Positions 15,142 to 25,637 of a stretch of 35,738 nt of DNA are shown here, in pieces (position 1 is the stretch's first letter; each line of letters begins with the position of its first letter). The notes under the pieces are model-generated. The model made no database searches. It had not been told where the DNA came from and was given only the letters and a program-made list of their open reading frames with translations. The stretch comes from a virus: positions 1 through 35,738 of the IMG/VR virus record IMGVR_UViG_3300017739_000039; one strand, given 5' to 3'. The translations under genes and the position numbers were made by a program.

Positions 15142-16710
15142 ATGGCAAATATTAGTTCATTCTTTGGTGGTTCAGGTGGCAGTGGTTTAAGTACTGACTT
15201 CACTAAAAACGATTATGGTGTGCCACTCCCTGAATACATTACTTGTATTACTCACAAGTCCTCATGTACTATAACAGTCTGTCCAGGATATACATTTGAC
15301 AGTAATTCTAAAGGTTTTTCTCAGGGTGGTATTACAAATGTTAGAGACAACATTTTTATTGCTACAGGGGTAGAGCATCCTTTTACTAACAGTGATTGCA
15401 CAAAAATATTTGCAATGGCTTTTTGTGTTAATGATGACACTGGTGCTATTGTATCAGGTATGACAGAGTTTAAATGTGTTTTTCAAAGTGCTAGTACTAA
15501 TGACAGGTTTGCAGGAGAAACTCAAACACCTGGAGTTGGTGATGGTTGCTGTAGGGCTTATTATGGTCACGCATGTTCTGGTTGTGGAAGTTACACAATA
15601 CTTTGTACTAACAGTTCTTTTAACTGTATTGGTACTAGCTCTGCCACTCGATATGGTTGTAGTGCTGCAGGTGGTTCAACATCCCTAGTTTACAATGGTG
15701 TTCCTGGTTCAGTACTAGCTCACGCAGGTAATAACGAAGATCAAAACTCTTTTATTCGTTTTTGTAATGGTAATGTTTGTTTTAATAACAATCTAGGTAA
15801 TTCTTTAGGTTGTACAAATTGTTTTGCTAGTAGTAATTTAAGAGGAAAGTATGCACTAAGTCCTAACACTATTCTTTTGACTGGGATTTTTATGTGTGGT
15901 GGTGATTGTATTTGCCATAAAACAATTTTGTTTCAATGGAATGATGCAAATGATTGTTATAGAATGGCCTACTGTAAAGGAGAAAGTGGGTCACAAGTTA
16001 CAAATAGTAACTATGTCTGTTGTATCCTATGTTGCCACAGCCCTGGTCATGTTCTAGGAACTTCTTTTAGAGTTGGTCCAACCTTTTATCCTGAAGGTGG
16101 AGGTGCTTCATTTTATCACGAACCAGACTGTCAAAATTGCATAAGACAAAAGTTTTGTGTAAATGGAGGATGTTGTAGAGCTATGCACCCCCACTCTGTC
16201 TTGTTAAATTGGGAGGGGCAAAATCATTGGAATATGCAGATGAAAGGCACTAGAGGTAAAGATGATGCTTCCTCTACCTGTTACTATGCAACTAATAATG
16301 ACTTTACTATGAACTGGGTTTCTAACAGTAGTTGTATTTCTAACAGAGTTGGTCATTATGTTGGTGTACAACAAAATGGTGTGCTAGGTGCAGGTATAGC
16401 TCAAAAAAGTTGCTTTGCTTTTAATTGTGGTAATTTTGGGCAAGGTACAAGACAAGAGACTTATGGATCTTGGTCTACTCCACATGGTGAGTCTGTTAGA
16501 CAACTTTATCAGTATCCTAGAACAGCCCTAAGATCTTATCCTATACCACAATTTTGTAATTGCTATCAAACTTGTTGTTTTCATTTCTTAGCATCACAAG
16601 TTGTAGGATGTAAATGGATTGTAACTATGGAGTCAAGTCAGTGTTGCCAGTGTGAATGTGTAACATTACATGCTTACAAGATTATGACTAACTCATGTAC
16701 AGCAGATTAG
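15142..16710 (+). CDS. extremely cysteine-rich tail-region protein 1 (45 Cys in 522 aa)
   Basis: The first 20 residues (MANISSFFGGSGGSGLSTDF) form a short start and Gly/Ser linker like other phage fibre proteins. The rest is beta-rich with 45 cysteines (8.6%), including six Cys-Cys pairs and many CxC or CxxC spacings (CTITVC, CGGDCIC, CCILCC, CNCYQTCC, CCQCEC). No known metal-binding or repeat family is recognised. The even spread of cysteines through the chain argues against a single zinc finger domain. It lies between the fibre and mini-fibre genes in the same transcript. A tail fibre or receptor-binding role is inferred. Flanking structural proteins are almost cysteine-free, so the composition is specific to this gene and the one at 17420. 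Confidence 0.8.
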   Translation: MANISSFFGGSGGSGLSTDFTKNDYGVPLPEYITCITHKSSCTITVCPGYTFDSNSKGFSQGGITNVRDNIFIATGVEHPFTNSDCTKIFAMAFCVNDDTGAIVSGMTEFKCVFQSASTNDRFAGETQTPGVGDGCCRAYYGHACSGCGSYTILCTNSSFNCIGTSSATRYGCSAAGGSTSLVYNGVPGSVLAHAGNNEDQNSFIRFCNGNVCFNNNLGNSLGCTNCFASSNLRGKYALSPNTILLTGIFMCGGDCICHKTILFQWNDANDCYRMAYCKGESGSQVTNSNYVCCILCCHSPGHVLGTSFRVGPTFYPEGGGASFYHEPDCQNCIRQKFCVNGGCCRAMHPHSVLLNWEGQNHWNMQMKGTRGKDDASSTCYYATNNDFTMNWVSNSSCISNRVGHYVGVQQNGVLGAGIAQKSCFAFNCGNFGQGTRQETYGSWSTPHGESVRQLYQYPRTALRSYPIPQFCNCYQTCCFHFLASQVVGCKWIVTMESSQCCQCECVTLHAYKIMTNSCTAD

Positions 16711-16724
16711 TAGAGGAATAGTAA

Positions 16725-17054
16725 ATGAGTAAAGCAAGAGACTTAGCCAATCTACTGTCTACAGGAGGTGTCCTGAACGATGGTGTTATAAGTGTATCAG
16801 AAATTGAAAGTGTTACTGCTACTGCGACAGAGTTAAACCTTATGGATGGTGTCACTGCAACTACTGCAGAGCTTAATCATGTTGATGGTGTGACATCTAA
16901 TGTTCAAACTCAAATCAATGCAAAGGCAGCAACTGCTAGTCCTACATTTACTGGAACTGTAACTGCTCCTACTGTAAATGCTACAACTGATCTGACTGTA
17001 AACTCTGTATCTGTTACAACAGAAACCGAATTAAGAAAATCTTTCTTACTATAA
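16725..17054 (+). CDS. mini tail-fibre protein with TAAELN repeats
   Basis: 109 residues. The start MSKARDLANLLSTGGVLND is typical of marine phage fibre proteins. Two or so units of the TAAELNxxDGV repeat follow (VTATATELNLMDGV, VTATTAELNHVDGV), then VTSNVQTQINAK and a short beta tail. The order repeat-VTSN(I/V)QTQ(L/I)N matches the C-terminal end of the long fibre at 12139, so this looks like a shortened paralogue or a detached fibre segment. It may trimerise with, or adapt, the flanking cysteine-rich proteins. The gene is intact, with GAGGAATAG as ribosome binding site. Confidence 0.75.
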   Translation: MSKARDLANLLSTGGVLNDGVISVSEIESVTATATELNLMDGVTATTAELNHVDGVTSNVQTQINAKAATASPTFTGTVTAPTVNATTDLTVNSVSVTTETELRKSFLL

Positions 17055-17069
17055 AAATGGAATATTGAC

Positions 17070-17420
17070 ATGGCTTTTACTTACTCTCTATTAACAGAAA
17101 TAACACAGATAGCTGCAAGTGCAGGTGCAGTGTATACTAATCCTTCTAGTAAAACTACCTTTATAAGGTCTATTATACTTCATAATGCAAACTCTTCTGC
17201 AGAAGCTGTAGTTCTTTATAATGTTCCAGATAACGGTGGTTCAGTAGGTACAGCAGCTATAGCTAATCAATTTTATAAAGCAAGTGTTGCAGCAGAGAGT
17301 ACTGTAATAATTGAGTTTGCTACACCTGGTGTTGTTTTAGAAGATGTAAACGACACAATACAGGCAAGTACAACTACTGCTAGTAAAGTGACTATACAAA
17401 TTATGGGAGCAACTGAATAA
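17070..17420 (+). CDS. small beta-rich virion-associated protein
   Basis: 116 residues, no cysteine, mostly predicted beta strands (KTTFIRSIILHNANSSAEAV, STVIIEFATPGVVLEDVND, SKVTIQIMGATE). Small proteins with the FIRSIILHNAN...VVLY pattern occur in phage tail-fibre regions and look like a beta-sandwich trimerisation or attachment domain. It lies in the fibre transcript and its TAA overlaps the next ATG (TAATG), coupling it to the large cysteine-rich protein. A partner role for that protein is inference. Confidence 0.68.
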   Translation: MAFTYSLLTEITQIAASAGAVYTNPSSKTTFIRSIILHNANSSAEAVVLYNVPDNGGSVGTAAIANQFYKASVAAESTVIIEFATPGVVLEDVNDTIQASTTTASKVTIQIMGATE

Positions 17421-19858
17421 TGGGTATAACAGTTTTTCCACCAAGTACAAGTTCAGGGAGTAGTGGTGGCTCTGAAAAACCTTACAAGTGTATTCCTGCT
17501 TGTGGTGCAGTAGCTGCAGGTGATTTAGTCTCTTTAACTCCAGGAGAATGTGTAGTTCGTTCTTCAGTTAAAGGAGCAGACCAAGACGAAATGGCTTGTT
17601 TCTGTAATGGTAATGGTTCACAAAATGTTACATTAGGAGCATGGAATGTAGTAGTTCCTTTCTTGTGTGCAAATAATTGCTATGCACAAGTAACATTACA
17701 TAATGGTGAAAAATGTACAGATGGCTTTGCAGAGTGTTGTTGGAGATGCCCTTGTATTTTAGTTAATGCTGTTACAGTAAACTCTGATCAAAGCACTACT
17801 TGCTGTACAATATATAGTTGTTGTATTCTTTTAGGAACAGCAAGTTGGCAGTGTTATAATAGTGCAGGTGAATGTTGCTGTGCTCAATTACAATTCTGCT
17901 CTGCACCCATTGTTCTTCCTTCTTGTTCAGGTCATAAGTCAGCAATATTTTTACCTTGTAATAAACAGTTTTTAAAGTGTAATTCAAATTGTTGTATATG
18001 TGATATTTATCAACAAGAAATTTGGTTGTGTTATAATACAACTTCAAATGTAGTATCAGTCATCTGTAGTTGTTGTAATATTGAAGGTCTTAGTGCAACT
18101 GCTACTAACTTCTGTAAATGTGATAAGTTTTATTATTTTGTTAGTAATGACAGAAAATATTTAGTTGGACAAAAAGCAAGAGGATATCCAAGTAGTGCAG
18201 GAGATTCAGGTCTTAAAAAAGAATACATTGTAAAATGTGTAAATGATAACTCTTACTTAGGTATTACTGCTGCAACAGTTACAGGTTTCAATCCTTGCTC
18301 TGTTTGGTGTAGTACTTGCTGTACTCAATTTTCACCTAGTTTTTCTTTTGGTGCTTTTGGATGGGCCCCATTTAGTCAAGGACAAGATGGATGGATGCTT
18401 GGTAGATTTGTTGTAGACAAGAACCCTCAAACAGGTTCTTGTTGTTGTTTCTTTACAAAAACATGGGCTATTAAACCTACTGCTGATTGTGCAATAACAA
18501 TGTCAGCAAATATTCTTTGTGACGTAGATGGTAGTTGTAACTTGGTAACTTCAAGAACAGGCTACTACGCAATTAAAGAAGCTAAACAAGCATCTTGTAG
18601 ATTTACAACTCAAAGTAATACTGCTTGTCTGATAGGAGTTGGAAGAGTATGGGATGAAGGTGACTGTGTTAAAAAAGTTTCTCTCCCTACGTTTCATCCT
18701 TGCACTGGTTGCTGTAGAGTAGTTGCAGGTCTTGCTTGTTTTTGCATAGATGGAAGCTGTAATATTCAGTTTATGGGAGGGCAAAGTTGTGATGCCAATG
18801 ATGGTCAAGTTTGTTGCACTTGTAGTCAGGCTTGCAAACCACTTGCTAATGGCTACTATATTGATTCTAATGACTTCACTTGTAAATTCTATGCATGTAG
18901 TCAAATAGGGCATGGTTGTGATTTATCTGCTGTGCCATGTTTAAAAGGAGGTCAGTATGGTGGAACTCTGTCTTGTAGTGCTGATAGCTTTTTATATTAC
19001 AACTCTTATCCTACCTGTATACAACAAGGTAGATATAGAACTGCGTTACCCCACCAGTACATACATGGAAGTGGAACAGGCTATGACTATAGTCGTGACG
19101 CATTAGAGTGTGCTAAACTTCCTGAAGGTGGTACTGGTTGTCAGTCACTTGTTGAAGGAACTGATGGTCAAGATTACAAGTCTGCTTCAGAGTACAAACT
19201 TTGTGCTTGTACAACTTGTTGGAATTTAAATTGTAATGCTTTATTTACTAAAATTTTAGATGGAATTTGTGCAGGTAATAGAAACCCTGCAGATCACTTC
19301 TTTCATCCTGGAAGTTGTTGTTTAGCTTTTTCAGGTGGTTTCTTTCCACTAGGTACTAGTTCAACAGCCTTTATTGCTGCTCAAGGACCATCTGGGCAAT
19401 TTAACCAATGGTGTAGATGTTGCGTAATTAGTGTAAGGGCGTGGAGTCAAGTTTTTCATAAAGATGTTAAAGCCTCTACGATGGGTAGAACTTATGGTAT
19501 TGCTCAAAATACTGCAGCAAATGGAGAAATAGTATGTGTTGCAGTACAGGGTAATATTGATAAATCCCCATTTACTTGCACACAATTAGCTGCTAGATAT
19601 ACTGCTTCTGGTCCTGTTGCTCTGTGTGGAGGAGTATGCTGTGGTCAGCTTACAGGTTTTATAGCATGTAAGTGTACTGATAAACATACTAAGGGATCTG
19701 GTGCTCCACATGCTTGTTACTTTCGTGGGTTTGAACAAGGTGGTTGTTGCACTAATTGTCAAGTAAGACATGCTTATATTACACCTTACTATGATGCTAC
19801 AGAAGAACATTTAGTAGGAAAAATTTCAACTAGGAATGATGATTTAGAAAACATATAG
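17420..19858 (+). CDS. extremely cysteine-rich tail-region protein 2 (87 Cys in 812 aa)
   Basis: 87 cysteines in 812 residues (10.7%), spread from residue 24 to about 783, with about 14 CC or CCC clusters (ECCC, SCCC, CTCCTQ-like) and many CxC. The N-terminus is a short segment and Ser/Gly linker, then CIPACGAVAAGDLVSLTPGE, which resembles the usual phage fibre opening (xGAIAAGDxVxLxxDG) with cysteines inserted at other residues. Cys codons are mostly TGT. Strand-like blocks alternate Cys with hydrophobic residues. No known domain is identified. A receptor-binding or particle-surface role is inferred from its place as the last gene of the fibre block. The frame is real: 812 codons are uninterrupted, coupled by TAATG to the gene before. 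Confidence 0.82.
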   Translation: MGITVFPPSTSSGSSGGSEKPYKCIPACGAVAAGDLVSLTPGECVVRSSVKGADQDEMACFCNGNGSQNVTLGAWNVVVPFLCANNCYAQVTLHNGEKCTDGFAECCWRCPCILVNAVTVNSDQSTTCCTIYSCCILLGTASWQCYNSAGECCCAQLQFCSAPIVLPSCSGHKSAIFLPCNKQFLKCNSNCCICDIYQQEIWLCYNTTSNVVSVICSCCNIEGLSATATNFCKCDKFYYFVSNDRKYLVGQKARGYPSSAGDSGLKKEYIVKCVNDNSYLGITAATVTGFNPCSVWCSTCCTQFSPSFSFGAFGWAPFSQGQDGWMLGRFVVDKNPQTGSCCCFFTKTWAIKPTADCAITMSANILCDVDGSCNLVTSRTGYYAIKEAKQASCRFTTQSNTACLIGVGRVWDEGDCVKKVSLPTFHPCTGCCRVVAGLACFCIDGSCNIQFMGGQSCDANDGQVCCTCSQACKPLANGYYIDSNDFTCKFYACSQIGHGCDLSAVPCLKGGQYGGTLSCSADSFLYYNSYPTCIQQGRYRTALPHQYIHGSGTGYDYSRDALECAKLPEGGTGCQSLVEGTDGQDYKSASEYKLCACTTCWNLNCNALFTKILDGICAGNRNPADHFFHPGSCCLAFSGGFFPLGTSSTAFIAAQGPSGQFNQWCRCCVISVRAWSQVFHKDVKASTMGRTYGIAQNTAANGEIVCVAVQGNIDKSPFTCTQLAARYTASGPVALCGGVCCGQLTGFIACKCTDKHTKGSGAPHACYFRGFEQGGCCTNCQVRHAYITPYYDATEEHLVGKISTRNDDLENI

Positions 19859-19859
19859 T

Positions 19860-19888
19860 TTGACTATACCCTCTAACTAAAGTACAAT
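19860..19888 (+). promoter_or_regulatory. sigma70-type promoter of the sugar cassette
   Basis: TTGACT (19860-19865) and TACAAT (19883-19888) have a 17-base spacer, each box 5 of 6 to consensus. It begins two bases after the stop of the last fibre gene. The leader that follows contains a small hairpin (ACCC-TTCAT-GGGT, 19896-19908) and a TAA run. This would let the cassette be transcribed separately from the late structural genes, possibly earlier in infection. Confidence 0.6.
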
Positions 19889-19934: not shown

Positions 19935-20861
19935 GTGAAAAAACTATTTTTTATTGATGGGGGAGCAGGTCGTGCTATTGCATCTATACCTGCTTTCCTA
20001 AAGTATGCAAAGAAACATGATGACTTTGGTATACTAGTGCATGGATGGGATTCTCTGTACTGGGGTATTCCTGAACTACAAGACAAAGTTTTTAACCCTG
20101 AACAAAAAGGTATCTTTGATCAAGTAGTAAAAAATGCTGAAGAACTTGTATCTCCTGAACCATATCGAGTACCAGGATACTTTAAACAAGAGTTATCTTT
20201 AGCAGAAGCATTTGATGTTTTAATAAATAACACAGATGATCATTCTGATCTACAGTCTCCTATTATTAAAACAAACAAAGTAGAAGAAGTAAACGCAGCT
20301 AAATTAATTTTAGATGCTAAGGCTCAACAGCAAAAAGATAAGACTATTGTTATTCAGCCTTTTGGTAGATCAATGCAACGAACTGAAATAGATGCAGTTA
20401 TTGATGAATCATCAAGGTCACTAGACTCAGAGGTATACTTAAAACTAGTTAAGAAACTGGCTACAAAGTACAACCTAGTATTAATGGCAGAGCAACCTTT
20501 TCACTCTGACGTAGATACCTACACAATTAAACCTAATGCTGATCTAAGATTGTGGGCAGCATTTATTGATGCAGCAGATTACTTTGTTGGAGTAGACTCT
20601 GTTGGACAACATATGGCAAGGGCGTTAGATAAACCTGGCACAGTTATTATTGGGTCAACCTTTGCAGTAAATACTTCATATCCAAACTATTTTAATATTT
20701 GGGAAAGGAAAGTTCAGAAAAAGTATTCACCTATTCGTATCTCAGGTCTTGAGGGTCACTTGGCAGATAGACTTAATGAGAAGACTATGGAACTCACTGA
20801 CGAAGAAGTAAATCAGTTGTACCAAAGTATTACTAAAGATATAGAAAAAAAGGTGAAGTAA
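19935..20861 (+). CDS. GT9-type (heptosyltransferase-like) glycosyltransferase
   Basis: 308 residues. Two Rossmann-like halves are expected for a GT-B fold. The C-terminal half contains IVIQPFGRS (near 145) and DAADYFVGVDSVGQHMARAL (near 211-230), close to the family 9 signature A..FIGVDSG..H.A.AL.kP, ending in GTVIIGST. Family 9 enzymes transfer heptose from ADP-heptose in the cytoplasm, usually to lipopolysaccharide core and occasionally to protein serine. The N-terminus FFIDGGAGRAIASIPA fits a donor-site glycine-rich loop. GTG start with a weak AGAAAGAAGA site. Its neighbours encode ADP-heptose synthesis, which strongly suggests the donor. The acceptor is unknown. Confidence 0.78.
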   Translation: MKKLFFIDGGAGRAIASIPAFLKYAKKHDDFGILVHGWDSLYWGIPELQDKVFNPEQKGIFDQVVKNAEELVSPEPYRVPGYFKQELSLAEAFDVLINNTDDHSDLQSPIIKTNKVEEVNAAKLILDAKAQQQKDKTIVIQPFGRSMQRTEIDAVIDESSRSLDSEVYLKLVKKLATKYNLVLMAEQPFHSDVDTYTIKPNADLRLWAAFIDAADYFVGVDSVGQHMARALDKPGTVIIGSTFAVNTSYPNYFNIWERKVQKKYSPIRISGLEGHLADRLNEKTMELTDEEVNQLYQSITKDIEKKVK

Positions 20862-20862
20862 T

Positions 20863-22566
20863 ATGAACATCCTAGCTATTAACCCAGGTCACAATGGTTC
20901 TGCTGCTTTACTAGTAGATGGCGAACTAAAGTTTTATATTGAAGAGGAACGTCTATCTCGTAACAAGTATGATGGCAACCCTTTTGCAGGAATAATGGAA
21001 GCACTAAAGTATGGTGTAGACATCCTTGTTCTTGGTGGTACTTCAGAACATTTTCCACAGTTACCTTGGACAGGTGAAGATCCTTACTCTGGTTTTTTAC
21101 GTAAGTTTAATCGTAACCTTCAAGTTATAAATCTAGGTCATGCACATCATTTAGGTCATGCAGCAGGAGCTTTTTATAACTCTGGTTTTGACGAAGCTGC
21201 AGCAGTTATTGTTGATGGCTCTGGCACTCACAGACAAATTGATATTAACGGTGACTATAAAAACTCAGGTTTTGAAACAGAGTCTATATATAAGTGTGAC
21301 TATGAAGAGGGTATAAAAGAAGTCTTCACTTCTTATGGGGGTAACTACGATACCCAACGTGTTAGTAACGAAAACATAGAGATGGATAGTGCTATTACAG
21401 TAGTAAAGGCATACGAAGCTGTCTCAGAGTATCTTGGTTTTGGTTTTATTGAAGCAGGTAAAACTATGGGTCTTGCACCCTATGGTAAGTACGATGAAAT
21501 GATTCCTAGTCTGTTTTATAATAGTAGGGGAAACAAGAATGTATTTATCCCTAATTATCCTGCAGGTGCTCACATTGATCACACTCGTCACCCTTACTTA
21601 ACCTTAACAGAAAATCCTAAAGATTGGCACAAAGATCCTAGTAAGGTAACAGATGCTGCAAAGAATCTAGCTTGGGCTGTACAAGATGAGACACAAACAC
21701 TTGTTGGTGATCTAATACAAAAAGCAGTTGATAAGACAGGACAAACAAACATTGTTATTGCAGGAGGTTATGGATTAAACTGTGTAGCAAACTACTACTA
21801 CAAGAAACGTTTTCCTGACCTTAACATTTATGTTGATCCTATCTCTCATGATGGTGGTACATCTATTGGTCTAGCACAAATAGTCCATTACACAGAGACA
21901 AAAGAAAAAACAAAACGTCCACTAAATACTTTGTACCTTGGTCCTGAACGTAAAGAAAACTACGATCTAGAAGAATACGAAACAAAAAATGTTACTGCTG
22001 CTGATGTAGCTAAGTTAATTGCAGATAAAAACATTGTTACTTTGTTTCAAGGCAGATCAGAAGCAGGACCAAGAGCACTAGGAAATCGTTCTATACTCTA
22101 TGATCCTACAGACCCTAAAGGCAAGGACACAGTAAACAAGGTTAAAGGTCGTGAATGGTTTAGACCATTTGCAGGATCAATGCTCAAGGAATACTTTGAG
22201 GAATGGTTTGATACATACGGTATGGAAGAGACACCATTCATGATGTATGCAATGGACTTCAAGACTGAGAAGCATGGTGAAGTTCCTGCTATCACGCACG
22301 TAGATGGTACATGTCGTATTCAAACTGTAACTAGAGAGCAGAACGAGTCTTACTACGATTTGATTGAAGAGTTTCGTAAGATTACTGGTGTACCTATTTT
22401 GTTTAATACAAGTTTTAACCTAGCAGGTCAGCCACTTGTAGAAACATTAGAGGATGCACTATATACAATGAAGAACTGTGATATTGAGTATCTATATTTA
22501 CCTGACGTAGGTAAACTTGTTATGGTAACTTCTGAGCAAACTGAAGAAGATTCTCAAAAACCTTAG
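20863..22566 (+). CDS. O-carbamoyltransferase, NodU/TobZ/CmcH family
   Basis: 567 residues, full length for the family. The N-terminal ASKHA/Kae1-like domain starts MNILAINPGHNGSAALLVDG, has metal-binding HHLGH (95-99) and VDGSG (Asp118), and continues with GKTMGLAPYG and HDGGTSIG. The C-terminal YrdC-like half carries GRSEAGPRALGNRSI near residue 397. These enzymes make carbamoyl adenylate from carbamoyl phosphate and ATP and carbamoylate a hydroxyl, for example on Nod factors, tobramycin, or heptose of Pseudomonas LPS core (WapO). Here the heptose neighbours suggest a heptosyl glycan as substrate, an inference. It starts one base after the glycosyltransferase stop. Its 3' end overlaps the opposite-strand phosphatase by 47 bases. 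Confidence 0.9.
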   Translation: MNILAINPGHNGSAALLVDGELKFYIEEERLSRNKYDGNPFAGIMEALKYGVDILVLGGTSEHFPQLPWTGEDPYSGFLRKFNRNLQVINLGHAHHLGHAAGAFYNSGFDEAAAVIVDGSGTHRQIDINGDYKNSGFETESIYKCDYEEGIKEVFTSYGGNYDTQRVSNENIEMDSAITVVKAYEAVSEYLGFGFIEAGKTMGLAPYGKYDEMIPSLFYNSRGNKNVFIPNYPAGAHIDHTRHPYLTLTENPKDWHKDPSKVTDAAKNLAWAVQDETQTLVGDLIQKAVDKTGQTNIVIAGGYGLNCVANYYYKKRFPDLNIYVDPISHDGGTSIGLAQIVHYTETKEKTKRPLNTLYLGPERKENYDLEEYETKNVTAADVAKLIADKNIVTLFQGRSEAGPRALGNRSILYDPTDPKGKDTVNKVKGREWFRPFAGSMLKEYFEEWFDTYGMEETPFMMYAMDFKTEKHGEVPAITHVDGTCRIQTVTREQNESYYDLIEEFRKITGVPILFNTSFNLAGQPLVETLEDALYTMKNCDIEYLYLPDVGKLVMVTSEQTEEDSQKP

Positions 22567-23164
22567 TCTTCTTTCTTAGTTTCTCTTTCGAGAACTTCTG
22601 AAGATCTTTTTCAGTAGCTACCCCATGACCAGTACGTACTAAGATTGGGGTAGCACCAATACGTTCTGCAGCTTTAAGGTCTGTAATCTTGTCACCTACA
22701 AAAAACCCTCTATCTTTAAATCTGTACTTATTATTAAATAATTCTTTTTCTGCTCTGTGAAACATACCTATATTAGGTTTAGCAAAGCAATCACATTTAA
22801 GTGAAGATTCAGAATAAAACAAACCATCAATGGAGTAGACACCTGCATTACCAAAGACTTGCATCATACGTTGATGGACAGCTTCTACTTGGTCATGTGT
22901 CTGCTCTTTTTTTATAATACCACCCTGATTGGTTAGTATAACTAGTTTATATCCTTTGAGTCTAATCATACGAATAGCTTCAAGAGATCCTGGGATAACT
23001 TCCCAATCATCAGGATCAGAGATGTAACCTTTATCTATATTAATTACACCATCTCGATCTAGACCAACAATTGACTTAGGAAATACTTTAGGCCAATCGT
23101 CAGGAACATTTTGCTGTTGAATCTGTTGTGGGTCTTGTTCTATTATATGTTTAAATCTAGACAT
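22520..23164 (-). CDS. gmhB: D-glycero-D-manno-heptose 1,7-bisphosphate 7-phosphatase (GmhB-like, HAD)
   Basis: 214 residues, HAD superfamily. Motif I is GLDRDGVIN (Asp36, Asp38), motif II LTNQGG (77-82), motif III Lys129 in AKPNIGM, motif IV VGDKITDLKAA (Asp158, Asp162). The order and spacing match GmhB/HisB-N phosphatases, which remove the 7-phosphate from heptose 1,7-bisphosphate. The GmhB zinc loop is incomplete: the CDC half is present (Cys124, Cys126) but the preceding CxH is replaced by SES and the loop is shortened. An N-terminal extension of about 30 residues is Gln-rich. It is the only - strand gene in the cassette. It has a near-perfect promoter 7 bases from its ATG and no Shine-Dalgarno, so it is probably translated from a leaderless mRNA. 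Confidence 0.85.
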   Translation of the reverse strand: MSRFKHIIEQDPQQIQQQNVPDDWPKVFPKSIVGLDRDGVINIDKGYISDPDDWEVIPGSLEAIRMIRLKGYKLVILTNQGGIIKKEQTHDQVEAVHQRMMQVFGNAGVYSIDGLFYSESSLKCDCFAKPNIGMFHRAEKELFNNKYRFKDRGFFVGDKITDLKAAERIGATPILVRTGHGVATEKDLQKFSKEKLRKKTKVFENLLQFAQKLP

Positions 23165-23170
23165 GGTGTA

Positions 23171-23199
23171 ATTTTAAGTATGAAGAAGATATTTGTCAA
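23171..23199 (-). promoter_or_regulatory. consensus promoter for the inverted gmhB gene (leaderless)
   Basis: On the - strand, TTGACA (23199-23194) and TAAAAT (23176-23171) are separated by exactly 17 bases. Six bases (TACACC) lie between the -10 box and the ATG at 23164, so transcription should start at or next to the start codon. The -35 lies inside the divergent nucleotidyltransferase gene. Confidence 0.65.
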
Positions 23200-23590
23200 T
23201 GGAGCATTTGATGTAGTGCATTCAGGACACCTTGATCTACTTGATTTTGCTAGAGGTTTAGGCACTCATCTTCTCGTAGCTATTGACACAGATAGGCGTA
23301 TTGAGTATAACAAGGGAAAAGAAAGACCTTTCAATAAACTCAAGAATAGAAAACATTTAATTAGTTCGTTGAAATCTGTTACAAGTGTAGTAACGTTTGA
23401 CACAGACAATGATCTTCTTGCGATTCTTCAGAGGTATAAACCAGATGTAATGGTAAAAGGTTCTGACTGGAGGGGAAAAGAAATTATAGGGGAGGAGTAC
23501 TGTAAAGAGGTAGTCTTCTATGAAAGAGTCAACAAAGAGTCAAGCACCAAAATCCTTAAAAGTTTTGTTGATAGGAGACAGTTGTTATGA
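23180..23590 (+). CDS. hldE-C (rfaE2-like): D-glycero-beta-D-manno-heptose 1-phosphate adenylyltransferase (HldE C-domain-like)
   Basis: 136 residues equal to one nucleotidyltransferase domain. The N-terminus MKKIFVNGAFDVVHSGHLDL contains the GxFDxxHxGH signature (HSGH at 14-17). It continues FARGLGTHLLVAID, PDVMVKGSDWRGKEIIG and SSTKILKS, which line up well with the C-terminal half of HldE (VKGGDYKPEEIAG and CSTTNIIKK in E. coli). It would couple heptose 1-phosphate with ATP to give ADP-heptose. The start at 23180 is chosen over an in-frame ATG at 23111 because it gives the canonical N-terminus; the longer form would run through the divergent gmhB start. It overlaps the kinase gene by 71 bases. 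Confidence 0.88.
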   Translation: MKKIFVNGAFDVVHSGHLDLLDFARGLGTHLLVAIDTDRRIEYNKGKERPFNKLKNRKHLISSLKSVTSVVTFDTDNDLLAILQRYKPDVMVKGSDWRGKEIIGEEYCKEVVFYERVNKESSTKILKSFVDRRQLL

Positions 23591-24281
23591 TGAATATCAT
23601 TATGGTTCTGTAAATAGAATTAGTCCTGAAGCTCCTGTTCCTATATTTGATTTACATGACACCGTTTCAAAAAAAGGAATGGCGTACAACGTACACAATA
23701 ATCTTGTAAATCTAAAACTTAAAGTAGATATTATAACAGAGTACTCTGAACGTAAGCATAGGTATGTTGATATTAAAACAGGTCAACAGCTTATAAGAAT
23801 AGACGAAAAGATAAAGAAACAATTCTTTGATAACGCAGAACAAATCTTAGATAACTATGCAGCAGTAATAGTTTCAGACTACAATAAAGGATTTGTTGCT
23901 GACAACGAAATAGAAGATCTTATAAAAAAGTACAAAGGTCCTATCTTTGTAGACACTAAGAAAAAAGATCTAGCCCAATTTGATGGTTGCTTTGTAAAAA
24001 TAAACCAGTACGAGTACGAAGCACGAGAGTCAGATACCGAAGAACTTATAGTTACATACGGCTCAAAGAAAGTCGAGTATAAAAACAGAACCTACATTCC
24101 TCCGAAAGTAGAAACTCATGATGTGTGTGGTGCAGGTGACACCTTTCTAGCTGCCCTTGTCTATAAGTATTTAGAAAAACAAAGTATAGACGAGGCTATA
24201 AGGTTTGCAATGAATGCAGCAGCAGTTACGGTGCAACATATAGGTGTCTATGCCCCAACACTAGAGGAAATTACTAGATGA
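23520..24281 (+). CDS. hldE-N (rfaE1-like): heptose 7-phosphate kinase (HldE N-domain-like, PfkB family), compact
   Basis: 253 residues against about 315 for the bacterial domain. LKVLLIGDSCYDEYHYG and RISPEAPVPI are near-exact counterparts of the HldE kinase N-terminus. LIRIDE, VSDYNKGF, VDTKKKD and the PfkB signature DVCGAGDTF (201-209, catalytic Asp207) follow. About 35 residues corresponding to the lid region after VDIIT are missing. It would phosphorylate D,D-heptose 7-phosphate at O-1. In bacteria this domain is usually fused before the nucleotidyltransferase; here it is separate and placed after it, overlapping by 71 bases. AGAGG about 10 bases upstream supports the ATG. Its TGA overlaps the cupin ATG. 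Confidence 0.86.
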   Translation: MKESTKSQAPKSLKVLLIGDSCYDEYHYGSVNRISPEAPVPIFDLHDTVSKKGMAYNVHNNLVNLKLKVDIITEYSERKHRYVDIKTGQQLIRIDEKIKKQFFDNAEQILDNYAAVIVSDYNKGFVADNEIEDLIKKYKGPIFVDTKKKDLAQFDGCFVKINQYEYEARESDTEELIVTYGSKKVEYKNRTYIPPKVETHDVCGAGDTFLAALVYKYLEKQSIDEAIRFAMNAAAVTVQHIGVYAPTLEEITR

Positions 24282-24634
24282 GGCTTGAAGGATTTGTAGA
24301 AAAAGGTTGGGGGTCTGAGTTTATATGGGCAACTAACGACAAATACTGTGGTAAATTTTTAAAGTTTAACAAAGGTGCAAAGTTTTCAATGCACTTCCAC
24401 AAAGAAAAAGATGAGACTTGGTTTGTTATATCAGGTAAATTTAAAGTCGTATGGATTGACACAGAAAACGCAGAACATAAAGAAGTTTCTTTGTTAGAAG
24501 GAGATGTTTGGCACAATCCACCACTAGTTCCTCATCAAGTAATTTGCTTAGAAGAGGGGAGTCTAATGGAAGTCTCTACTCCTGATTCTGTAGAAGACAA
24601 TTACAGAGTTGGTAAGGGTGACAGCCAAGAATGA
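24278..24634 (+). CDS. cupin sugar-phosphate enzyme, mannose-6-phosphate-isomerase-like
   Basis: 118 residues, a single cupin domain. Motif 1 is complete: Gly33, His39, His41, Glu46, Gly53 with the standard spacing (the core is SMHFHKEKDETW). Motif 2 gives Pro81 and His86, so all four metal ligands are present. The opening GWGSEFIWATNDKYCGKFL resembles cupins of the type II mannose-6-phosphate isomerase group found in sugar-nucleotide clusters. No GmhA (SIS-domain) isomerase is in the window, so this cupin is a candidate for making D,D-heptose 7-phosphate from sedoheptulose 7-phosphate, or for another isomerisation. That is inference. It is coupled to its neighbours by ATGA-type overlaps on both sides. 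Confidence 0.75.
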   Translation: MRLEGFVEKGWGSEFIWATNDKYCGKFLKFNKGAKFSMHFHKEKDETWFVISGKFKVVWIDTENAEHKEVSLLEGDVWHNPPLVPHQVICLEEGSLMEVSTPDSVEDNYRVGKGDSQE

Positions 24635-25416
24635 AAATACTAGTTACTGGTCACAAAGGGTTCATTGGTCAGAACATGGTCAATGCCCTAAAAGATAAAC
24701 ATCAAATTTCTACGTATGAGTGGGGGAATCAATACCCAATACTAGATGGTCTTGATTGGGTAATACACTTAGGAGCAGTAAGCTCTACCACAGAAAAAGA
24801 CATACGTAAGATAACAGTACAGAATATTGAGTCCTCTATATATTTGTATGAAGACTGTATAGAAAGAGGAATAAACTTTCAGTTTGCTAGTTCTGCTTCA
24901 GTCTATGGTTTAGATCCTTGTGGTTTTAAAGAGACTGCAGTCTTAAATCCCCTGAATCATTATGCTAGAAGTAAAGCTCTATTTGAGAACTACATCAAAT
25001 ACAGAGATGCTCCTATAATAACTCAAGTATTTAGATACTTTAACGTATACGGTGATCACGAAGATCATAAAGGAGAACAGGCAAGTCCTTATACTAAGTT
25101 TAGAAAGCAAGCAAAAGAAACTGGAAAGATAAAACTATTCAAGAACTCAGAATATTTTTACAGAGATTTTATTCACGTAGACAAGATTATAGAGTATCAT
25201 CAAAAGTTTTTCTCTATAGAAAAGTCAGGTGTCTGGAACGTAGGTACAGGTTTTGAAAGAAGTTTTTACGAGGTTGCTTTAGAAATATGTAAAGAAACAG
25301 AAGCAACTATCGAGTGGATAGAGATGCCAGAAAATTTAAAGAATAGTTATCAAGACTTTACTAGGGCAGATACGGTTAAACTATGGCAGACGTTAGACTT
25401 ACCACAGAAGAATTAG
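24631..25416 (+). CDS. hldD: ADP-L-glycero-D-manno-heptose 6-epimerase (HldD-like), compact
   Basis: 261 residues against about 310 for HldD. It is an extended short-chain dehydrogenase: TGHKGFIGQ dinucleotide loop (6-14), SSTTEKD, and YxxxK as Tyr111 and Lys115 (YARSK). The HldD-specific FRYFNVYG (134-141) is followed by HKG with Lys147, equivalent to the catalytic Lys178 of E. coli HldD, then FYRDFIHVDKI and WNVGTGFERSF. It would invert C6 of ADP-D,D-heptose. About 25 residues are missing near the N-terminal nucleotide-ribose region, and roughly 25 at the C-terminus, where the gene ends shortly after SYQDFTRAD. The next gene starts 34 bases inside it. Key residues are intact, so activity is plausible. 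Confidence 0.88.
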   Translation: MKILVTGHKGFIGQNMVNALKDKHQISTYEWGNQYPILDGLDWVIHLGAVSSTTEKDIRKITVQNIESSIYLYEDCIERGINFQFASSASVYGLDPCGFKETAVLNPLNHYARSKALFENYIKYRDAPIITQVFRYFNVYGDHEDHKGEQASPYTKFRKQAKETGKIKLFKNSEYFYRDFIHVDKIIEYHQKFFSIEKSGVWNVGTGFERSFYEVALEICKETEATIEWIEMPENLKNSYQDFTRADTVKLWQTLDLPQKN

Positions 25417-25637
25417 AAGACATGATGGATCGTGCAGCTAGGCGTGGTGCTAAAGAAGCATTGCGTTCTATTGGTTTGCTTGATGATGATGCTATAAAAG
25501 ATATTATAGAGATGAGAAGTTTGTTAGAGGCGTGGAGAGATACACGTAAGTCTGTCTGGTCAACAATAGTTAAAGTAACCACTGTCGCACTGCTGACATT
25601 TATTGCAGGTGCAGTGTGGATGACAATGGGAAAGTAA
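25383..25637 (+). CDS. small membrane protein, holin candidate
   Basis: 84 residues. The N-terminal two thirds are charged (LTTEELEDMMDRAARRGAKE). One membrane segment covers about residues 60-81 (TIVKVTTVALLTFIAGAVWM). It resembles the widespread small phage proteins with a charged N-terminus, WRxxR motif and terminal membrane segment, some annotated DUF6127 or putative holin. A lysis role is plausible but unproven; the only peptidoglycan-cleaving domain seen is in the virion transglycosylase at 29120. It overlaps the epimerase gene by 34 bases. Confidence 0.65.
   Translation: MADVRLTTEELEDMMDRAARRGAKEALRSIGLLDDDAIKDIIEMRSLLEAWRDTRKSVWSTIVKVTTVALLTFIAGAVWMTMGK

Follow-up and report, generated by a model that had tools for sequence, protein, structure and literature searches.

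A putative virion-glycosylation module in a marine podovirus: an ADP-heptose cassette beside genes for cysteine-rich proteins

Enzymes of the BAHT group (TibC/AAH) use ADP-heptose to add heptose to a protein adhesin whose gene lies nearby; they carry a Cys-ligated iron site, their acceptors are modified at Ser and the sugar is supplied by the host. The glycocin S-glycosyltransferases SunS and GccA attach a sugar to cysteine sulphur, and are GT2-fold enzymes that use hexoses and small peptide acceptors. The gene set closest to the one described here is the 'LPS-type' cluster of the cyanomyoviruses P-SSM2 (PSSM2_307-313), S-SSM7 and S-CAM3, where genes for a GT9-like protein, NodU, adenylyltransferase, kinase, a cupin and HldD lie in the same order as here, beside tail-fibre genes. 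According to a review, P-SSM2 has two clusters with 24 LPS-type genes in all, which were suggested to alter the host surface (PMC2984593); the cassette may be one of these clusters. Since these three phages already have the cassette, finding a heptose cassette in a phage is no novelty as such, and an earlier sequence-only reading of our locus, which had called a nearly whole pathway in one cassette unusual, needs qualifying in this respect. The new part is the Cys-rich proteins encoded directly upstream of GT9, outside the cassette (19935-25416). In the open-access literature searched, nothing relevant was found on phage S-glycosylation, ADP-heptose or Cys-rich fibres.

The window, that is, the whole stretch of DNA analyzed here, is one virus record of 35,738 bases. 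Its major capsid protein and portal are 79% and 75% identical, respectively, to those of Roseobacter phage CRP-13, a phage without the cassette, and the window therefore represents an HMO-2011-type marine podovirus. The seven genes that the sequence-only reading had placed in the cassette were all found there and all matched the named families, though the reading had not mentioned that GmhB is encoded on the minus strand (Table 1). This gene lies tail to tail with the NodU gene in a plus-strand virion operon, and its orientation is kept in most close relatives. The claim that the cassette has its own promoter was also supported, as TTGA..-17-TATAAT-type boxes about 50 nt before the GTG start of GT9 recur in relatives (12 upstream regions, aligned by eye); in a promoter scan of the window alone, the score was not above chance. 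After the cassette, a gene for a DUF6127 protein (25383-25637) overlaps the end of hldD, and this gene occurs also in CRP-13, there without the cassette.

Table 1. Features of the virion block and the heptose cassette in the window
Feature	Positions	Strand	Remark
Cys-rich virion-block protein A (522 aa, 45 Cys, 8.6%)	15142..16710	+	proposed glycosylated fibre protein
Small tail-fibre-like protein, 0 Cys, between two Cys-rich genes	16725..17054	+	
Small protein, 0 Cys, between two Cys-rich genes	17070..17420	+	
Cys-rich virion-block protein B (812 aa, 87 Cys, 10.7%)	17420..19858	+	proposed main acceptor
Sigma70-like promoter TTGACT-17-TACAAT	19860..19888	+	similar boxes precede GT9 in relatives
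GT9-like glycosyltransferase (308 aa, GTG start, no Cys)	19935..20861	+	proposed fibre heptosyltransferase
NodU/TobZ-type O-carbamoyltransferase	20863..22566	+	Pfam domains, motifs
GmhB, heptose 1,7-bisphosphate phosphatase (HAD)	22520..23164	-	divergent from adenylyltransferase gene
HldE C-domain-type heptose 1-phosphate adenylyltransferase	23180..23590	+	HxGH motif
HldE N-domain-type (pfkB) heptose 7-phosphate kinase, shortened, 253 aa	23520..24281	+	
Cupin, candidate sedoheptulose 7-phosphate ketol-isomerase (GmhA substitute)	24278..24634	+	role inferred
HldD, ADP-L-glycero-D-manno-heptose 6-epimerase, shortened, 261 aa	24631..25416	+	

The window shares with the cyanomyovirus clusters the gene set, its order and the Cys-rich proteins encoded before it. 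On the other hand, the cyanophages have a short 'phosphoheptose isomerase' (T4-GC306) in GmhB's place and HldD on the opposite strand, whereas the window, which comes from a podovirus, has GmhB, on the minus strand. The version of the window is retained in several dozen IMG/VR loci, in which GmhB is usually encoded on the opposite strand. In P-SSM2, T4-GC306 corresponds to PSSM2_311 (L002:12725-13069, 110 aa), and its homologues are alike. Its assignment as GmhA was not supported, since it had no Pfam hit and begins with a HAD-like DIDGT motif (by eye); it is probably a misannotated phosphatase that may replace GmhB.

In HMM and structure searches against GmhB, HldE, HldD and GT9, the matches of each protein agreed with the named family. 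GmhB matched PRK08942 (E 5e-41) with GmhB structures as the best PDB matches, the adenylyltransferase matched rfaE_dom_II (E 1e-30), the kinase rfaE_dom_I (E 3e-37) and HldD heptose_epim (E 2e-63), with E. coli HldD as its top PDB match (E 2e-38). The scores of these four proteins are under the NCBIfam curated cut-offs, with the same families still being the best hits, as would be expected if the phage proteins have diverged and become shorter. The catalytic motifs that were checked occur in the window (kinase: GAGD, NxxE and SPEAPVP; HldD: TGxxGFIG, the S116 region, YxxxK and the HKG lysine; GmhB: DxDG, TNQ and GDKxxD) and in most relatives (GAGD in 51/51 kinases, HxGH in 48/48 adenylyltransferases, YxxxK in 53/53 HldD), while the C-x-H half of the zinc site, as found in E. 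coli, is missing from the window GmhB. We infer that the cassette proteins are active enzymes. They fit the successive steps to ADP-L,D-heptose and its use by a GT9 transferase that the sequence-only reading had laid out, and the gene set is conserved as a unit. A GDP-heptose route, which had been named there as another possible pathway, would use a GHMP-type kinase; the kinase here is of the pfkB/HldE type. In three loci (L080, L084 and L094) the whole sugar block, consisting of kinase, adenylyltransferase, cupin, GmhB and HldD, is inverted, indicating that the block moves as a unit.

No GmhA was found among the cassette genes of the window. The cupin profile weakly matches D-lyxose and L-ribose isomerases (E 2e-5 to 1e-4), and the cupin is kept in nearly all full cassettes. 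It is not incidental, and our guess is that it could supply the isomerase step that is otherwise missing at the start of the pathway. The PHROGs label for this cupin family is 'cysteine dioxygenase'; the profile hits instead include sugar ketol-isomerases.

The GT9-like protein matched phrog_8954 (E 1e-86) and scored 21 bits against Pfam GT9, one bit under the cut-off of 22. When its structural model (pLDDT 57, low confidence) was searched with Foldseek, WaaC was the best match (E 1e-6, prob 1.0), followed by WaaF and TibC. The sequence signature is well kept among the GT9s compared (GG.GR in 97/97, D[ST]..H in 95/97), and the window protein carries this signature and is predicted to adopt the GT-B fold. 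Its scores against the LPS heptosyltransferase equivalogs were well below their cut-offs (28 bits versus 170 for III, 20 versus 185 for I). The transferase is common in viruses, with relatives of the window GT9 encoded in at least 581 viral stretches of IMG/VR. The neighbouring NodU/Nol-like carbamoyltransferase (Pfam E 4e-62) has both the N- and C-terminal Pfam domains and the conserved motifs.

Directly upstream of GT9, proteins A and B together contain 132 Cys in 1,334 aa, compared to 11 Cys in 7,821 aa for the rest of the virion block. Protein A has a 64% identical relative in locus L036 and distant relatives in L009/L011/L014, and no match among annotated phages; for protein B, neither the annotated phages nor a pattern search of IMG/VR yielded a relative, as would suit a receptor-binding protein that changes fast. 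Neither protein has a Pfam match, and protein B has none in PHROGs. Over 44 aa, the product of the small tail-fibre-like gene between them is 66% identical to the tail fibre of the window itself. From their position and their relatives, A and B are presumably fibres. The cyanophage-type Cys-rich proteins match phrog_4205 and Pfam Gly_rich_2 (best E 6.7e-7); the top PDB match of a model of one of them in Foldseek (pLDDT 52, low confidence) is the fibre of cyanophage Pam3 (E 5e-5), and the Cys-rich protein of locus L142 matches a tail-fibre family.

The pairing of GT9 with Cys-rich neighbours extends well beyond the window. When loci with two or more heptose genes were counted by distinct GT9 sequence, an ORF of 6% Cys or more lay upstream in 32/35, the remaining three reaching 5.0-5.8%, whereas only 1/435 background ORFs (at least 150 codons) reaches 6%; since the loci are related to one another, Fisher p-values for such counts overstate independence. 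Such ORFs before GT9, mostly with 8-12% Cys, occur in the cyanomyoviruses and throughout the full-cassette loci of IMG/VR. Among the MAG hits, all seven phage-like contigs show the pairing (7/7), and the distant bacterial GT9s have no comparable Cys-rich neighbour. Cyanophage-like contigs (L144-L148) were found in MAGs titled Euryarchaeota, Rhodobacteraceae, Actinomycetota and Flavobacteriales, a placement likely due to binning errors. The Cys-rich proteins make up at least 18 groups between which no similarity could be detected. Common descent of one fibre therefore fails to explain the pairing, and a single inherited Cys-rich fibre family is ruled out. This is a stronger argument than the locus counts.

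The association was then resolved into its parts. Heptose genes without GT9 had a Cys-rich neighbour in 0/14 loci, 10 of which were clean (the other four, L001, L026, L030 and L033, are fragments whose GT9 side possibly lies outside), which rules out that Cys-richness follows heptose genes alone. In S-T4, P-TIM68, S-SM2 and Sf-CH8, which have heptose genes and no GT9/NodU, these genes sit inside larger glycosyltransferase clusters, and no large Cys-rich ORF was found in the stretch examined, a part of each genome. In six HMO-2011-type phages without the cassette, the virion block contains 0.2-0.45% Cys, with a maximum of 3.1%; given this, and the presence of Cys-rich proteins in cyanomyoviruses, Cys-richness as a trait of the HMO-2011 lineage is ruled out as well. 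These two comparisons also speak against the explanation that the cysteines bind a metal such as iron at the tail tip and that the sugar cassette is a hitch-hiker in a tail-adhesin exchange module, since Cys-rich fibres go with GT9 and not with heptose genes alone, and are absent in the six cassette-less relatives. The Cys-rich sequences, the exchange of fibre modules as blocks, and the occurrence of the cupin and of 2OG-Fe(II) oxygenases near some cassettes would agree with that explanation, which we regard as very unlikely.

In Vibrio/Aeromonas schitovirus-type phages (L054, L055 and L060), a distant GT9 (26-27% identity) occurs without heptose genes nearby and directly adjoins a tail-region protein with 41, 23 or 39 Cys, a moderate enrichment of 2.4-4.4%. 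Vibrio/Aeromonas-type hosts make ADP-heptose themselves. A Cys-rich candidate acceptor lies beside the transferase with the exception of one clade of 18 GT9s; nearly all of these have NodU, none has a kinase, adenylyltransferase or HldD in the flank examined, and a Cys-rich neighbour is present in only 1/18, most having 1-5.5% Cys, compared to 33/34 in the clade of the window. Loci L096-L126, of the clade with GT9 and NodU, contain clusters with an apparent sulphotransferase and other transferase genes and no strongly Cys-rich fibres; a change of sugar or acceptor is possible there.

Whether host LPS could be the target was judged from the likely hosts. Rhodobacteraceae are a likely host family. 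No HldE kinase was matched at E 1e-60 in 81 genomes of the family of a MAG titled Rhodobacteraceae, and no HldD at 1e-80 in 41 genomes of that family, E. coli and Caulobacter being positive in both searches as controls. The LPS of marine Synechococcus WH8102 and CC9311 contains neither heptose nor KDO (PMC4515613). In such hosts the phage must bring the pathway if ADP-heptose is needed, and no native heptose acceptor is expected in their LPS. This bears on the explanation that GT9 acts on the envelope of the infected host, heptosylating its LPS or another glycan there and resulting in a superinfection block or a changed surface. GT9 enzymes are LPS heptosyltransferases, with WaaC and WaaF as the top fold matches of our model, and such a role was proposed for the P-SSM2 LPS-type clusters, according to the review mentioned above (PMC2984593). 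However, the expected lack of an acceptor counts against it, it leaves the Cys-rich fibre-type neighbours of GT9 in unrelated phages unexplained, and it is the phages with heptose genes in larger glycosyltransferase clusters, without GT9/NodU, that look more like surface-type systems. We consider it quite unlikely. Of the three targets that the sequence-only reading had offered (LPS, a protein or a virion glycan), LPS is accordingly disfavoured, whereas the virion is favoured by the linkage of GT9 with Cys-rich fibres.

Within the Cys-rich proteins, Cys is the most conserved residue (79% in aligned pairs). Among the residues that take its place, N and K are over-represented (1.7 and 1.9 fold, respectively) and W, P, F and I are under-represented, suggesting that these positions are exposed. 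CC and CxC pairs are enriched, and Ser and Thr together make up 16.5% of residues. The Cys conservation and the frequent CC pairs would also suit disulphides or metal binding. Parity of the Cys count (26 even, 22 odd) is uninformative, and the models (pLDDT 57 for GT9, 52 for the Cys-rich protein) are of too low confidence to tell disulphide-paired from exposed Cys. A serious rival arises here, in which GT9 places heptose on ordinary fibre residues (Ser, Thr or Asn) and the cysteines are disulphide cross-links or metal ligands that stabilize the same fibres. TibC/AAH-type enzymes O-heptosylate Ser, and TibC is among the fold hits of GT9; the Ser and Thr content and the enriched, highly conserved Cys pairs agree with it, too. 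It gives no reason, however, why extreme Cys content should track GT9 over at least 18 dissimilar groups. In addition, fibres assemble in the reducing cytoplasm, and a thiol oxidoreductase was not found in the cassette of the window. We regard this rival as unlikely, though it deserves to be taken more seriously than the other two.

The explanation that we favour, by a small degree over its being wrong, is that the cassette is a virion-glycosylation module placing heptose on the phage's own Cys-rich fibres. Sedoheptulose 7-phosphate would be isomerized by the cupin or a host enzyme, and the kinase, GmhB, adenylyltransferase and HldD would then convert the product into ADP-L-glycero-D-manno-heptose. 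From this, GT9 would move the heptose onto the Cys-rich tail-fibre proteins encoded directly upstream, most likely onto Cys sulphurs, and the NodU-type enzyme would carbamoylate the heptose. In hosts that make no ADP-heptose, the phage would in this way assemble fibres with a dense cover of sugar. Genomic linkage of GT9 with Cys-rich ORFs is no proof of the substrate; nevertheless, the fibre is likely to be the target, while for cysteine sulphur as the attachment atom, which is suggested by the linkage with Cys, we see the case as evenly balanced. With roughly one in ten fibre residues being Cys, diverse marine phages could bear a dense coat of S-linked (carbamoyl-)heptose on their receptor-binding proteins, built from phage-made ADP-heptose in hosts lacking it, which we propose tentatively and with somewhat less than even confidence. 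To our knowledge, this kind of protein glycosylation has not been described before.

On this proposal, a gene set of the sort that has long been interpreted as phage 'LPS genes' becomes a probable virion-glycosylation module, and particular masses are expected on the fibre peptides of phages that are already cultured. It would explain why the pathway occurs in phages of hosts without ADP-heptose, and the transferase alone in Vibrio/Aeromonas phages. If Cys is the acceptor, the known S-glycosyltransferases would also be joined by one of GT9 type whose substrates are large structural proteins.

Compared to the LPS heptosyltransferases WaaC and WaaF, the window GT9 shares the fold and the D-S/T...H motif of the nucleotide-sugar site; however, identity in the fold alignments is only about 12%, and the gene neighbourhood points to fibres rather than LPS. 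The likeness to the BAHT enzymes lies in TibC being among the fold hits of the GT9 model, whereas the window GT9 has no Cys and hence lacks their Cys-ligated iron motif. With SunS and GccA, the proposed system has in common the linkage to cysteine sulphur, but it would combine a GT9-like fold with large proteins of 45-87 Cys as acceptors and heptose as the sugar.
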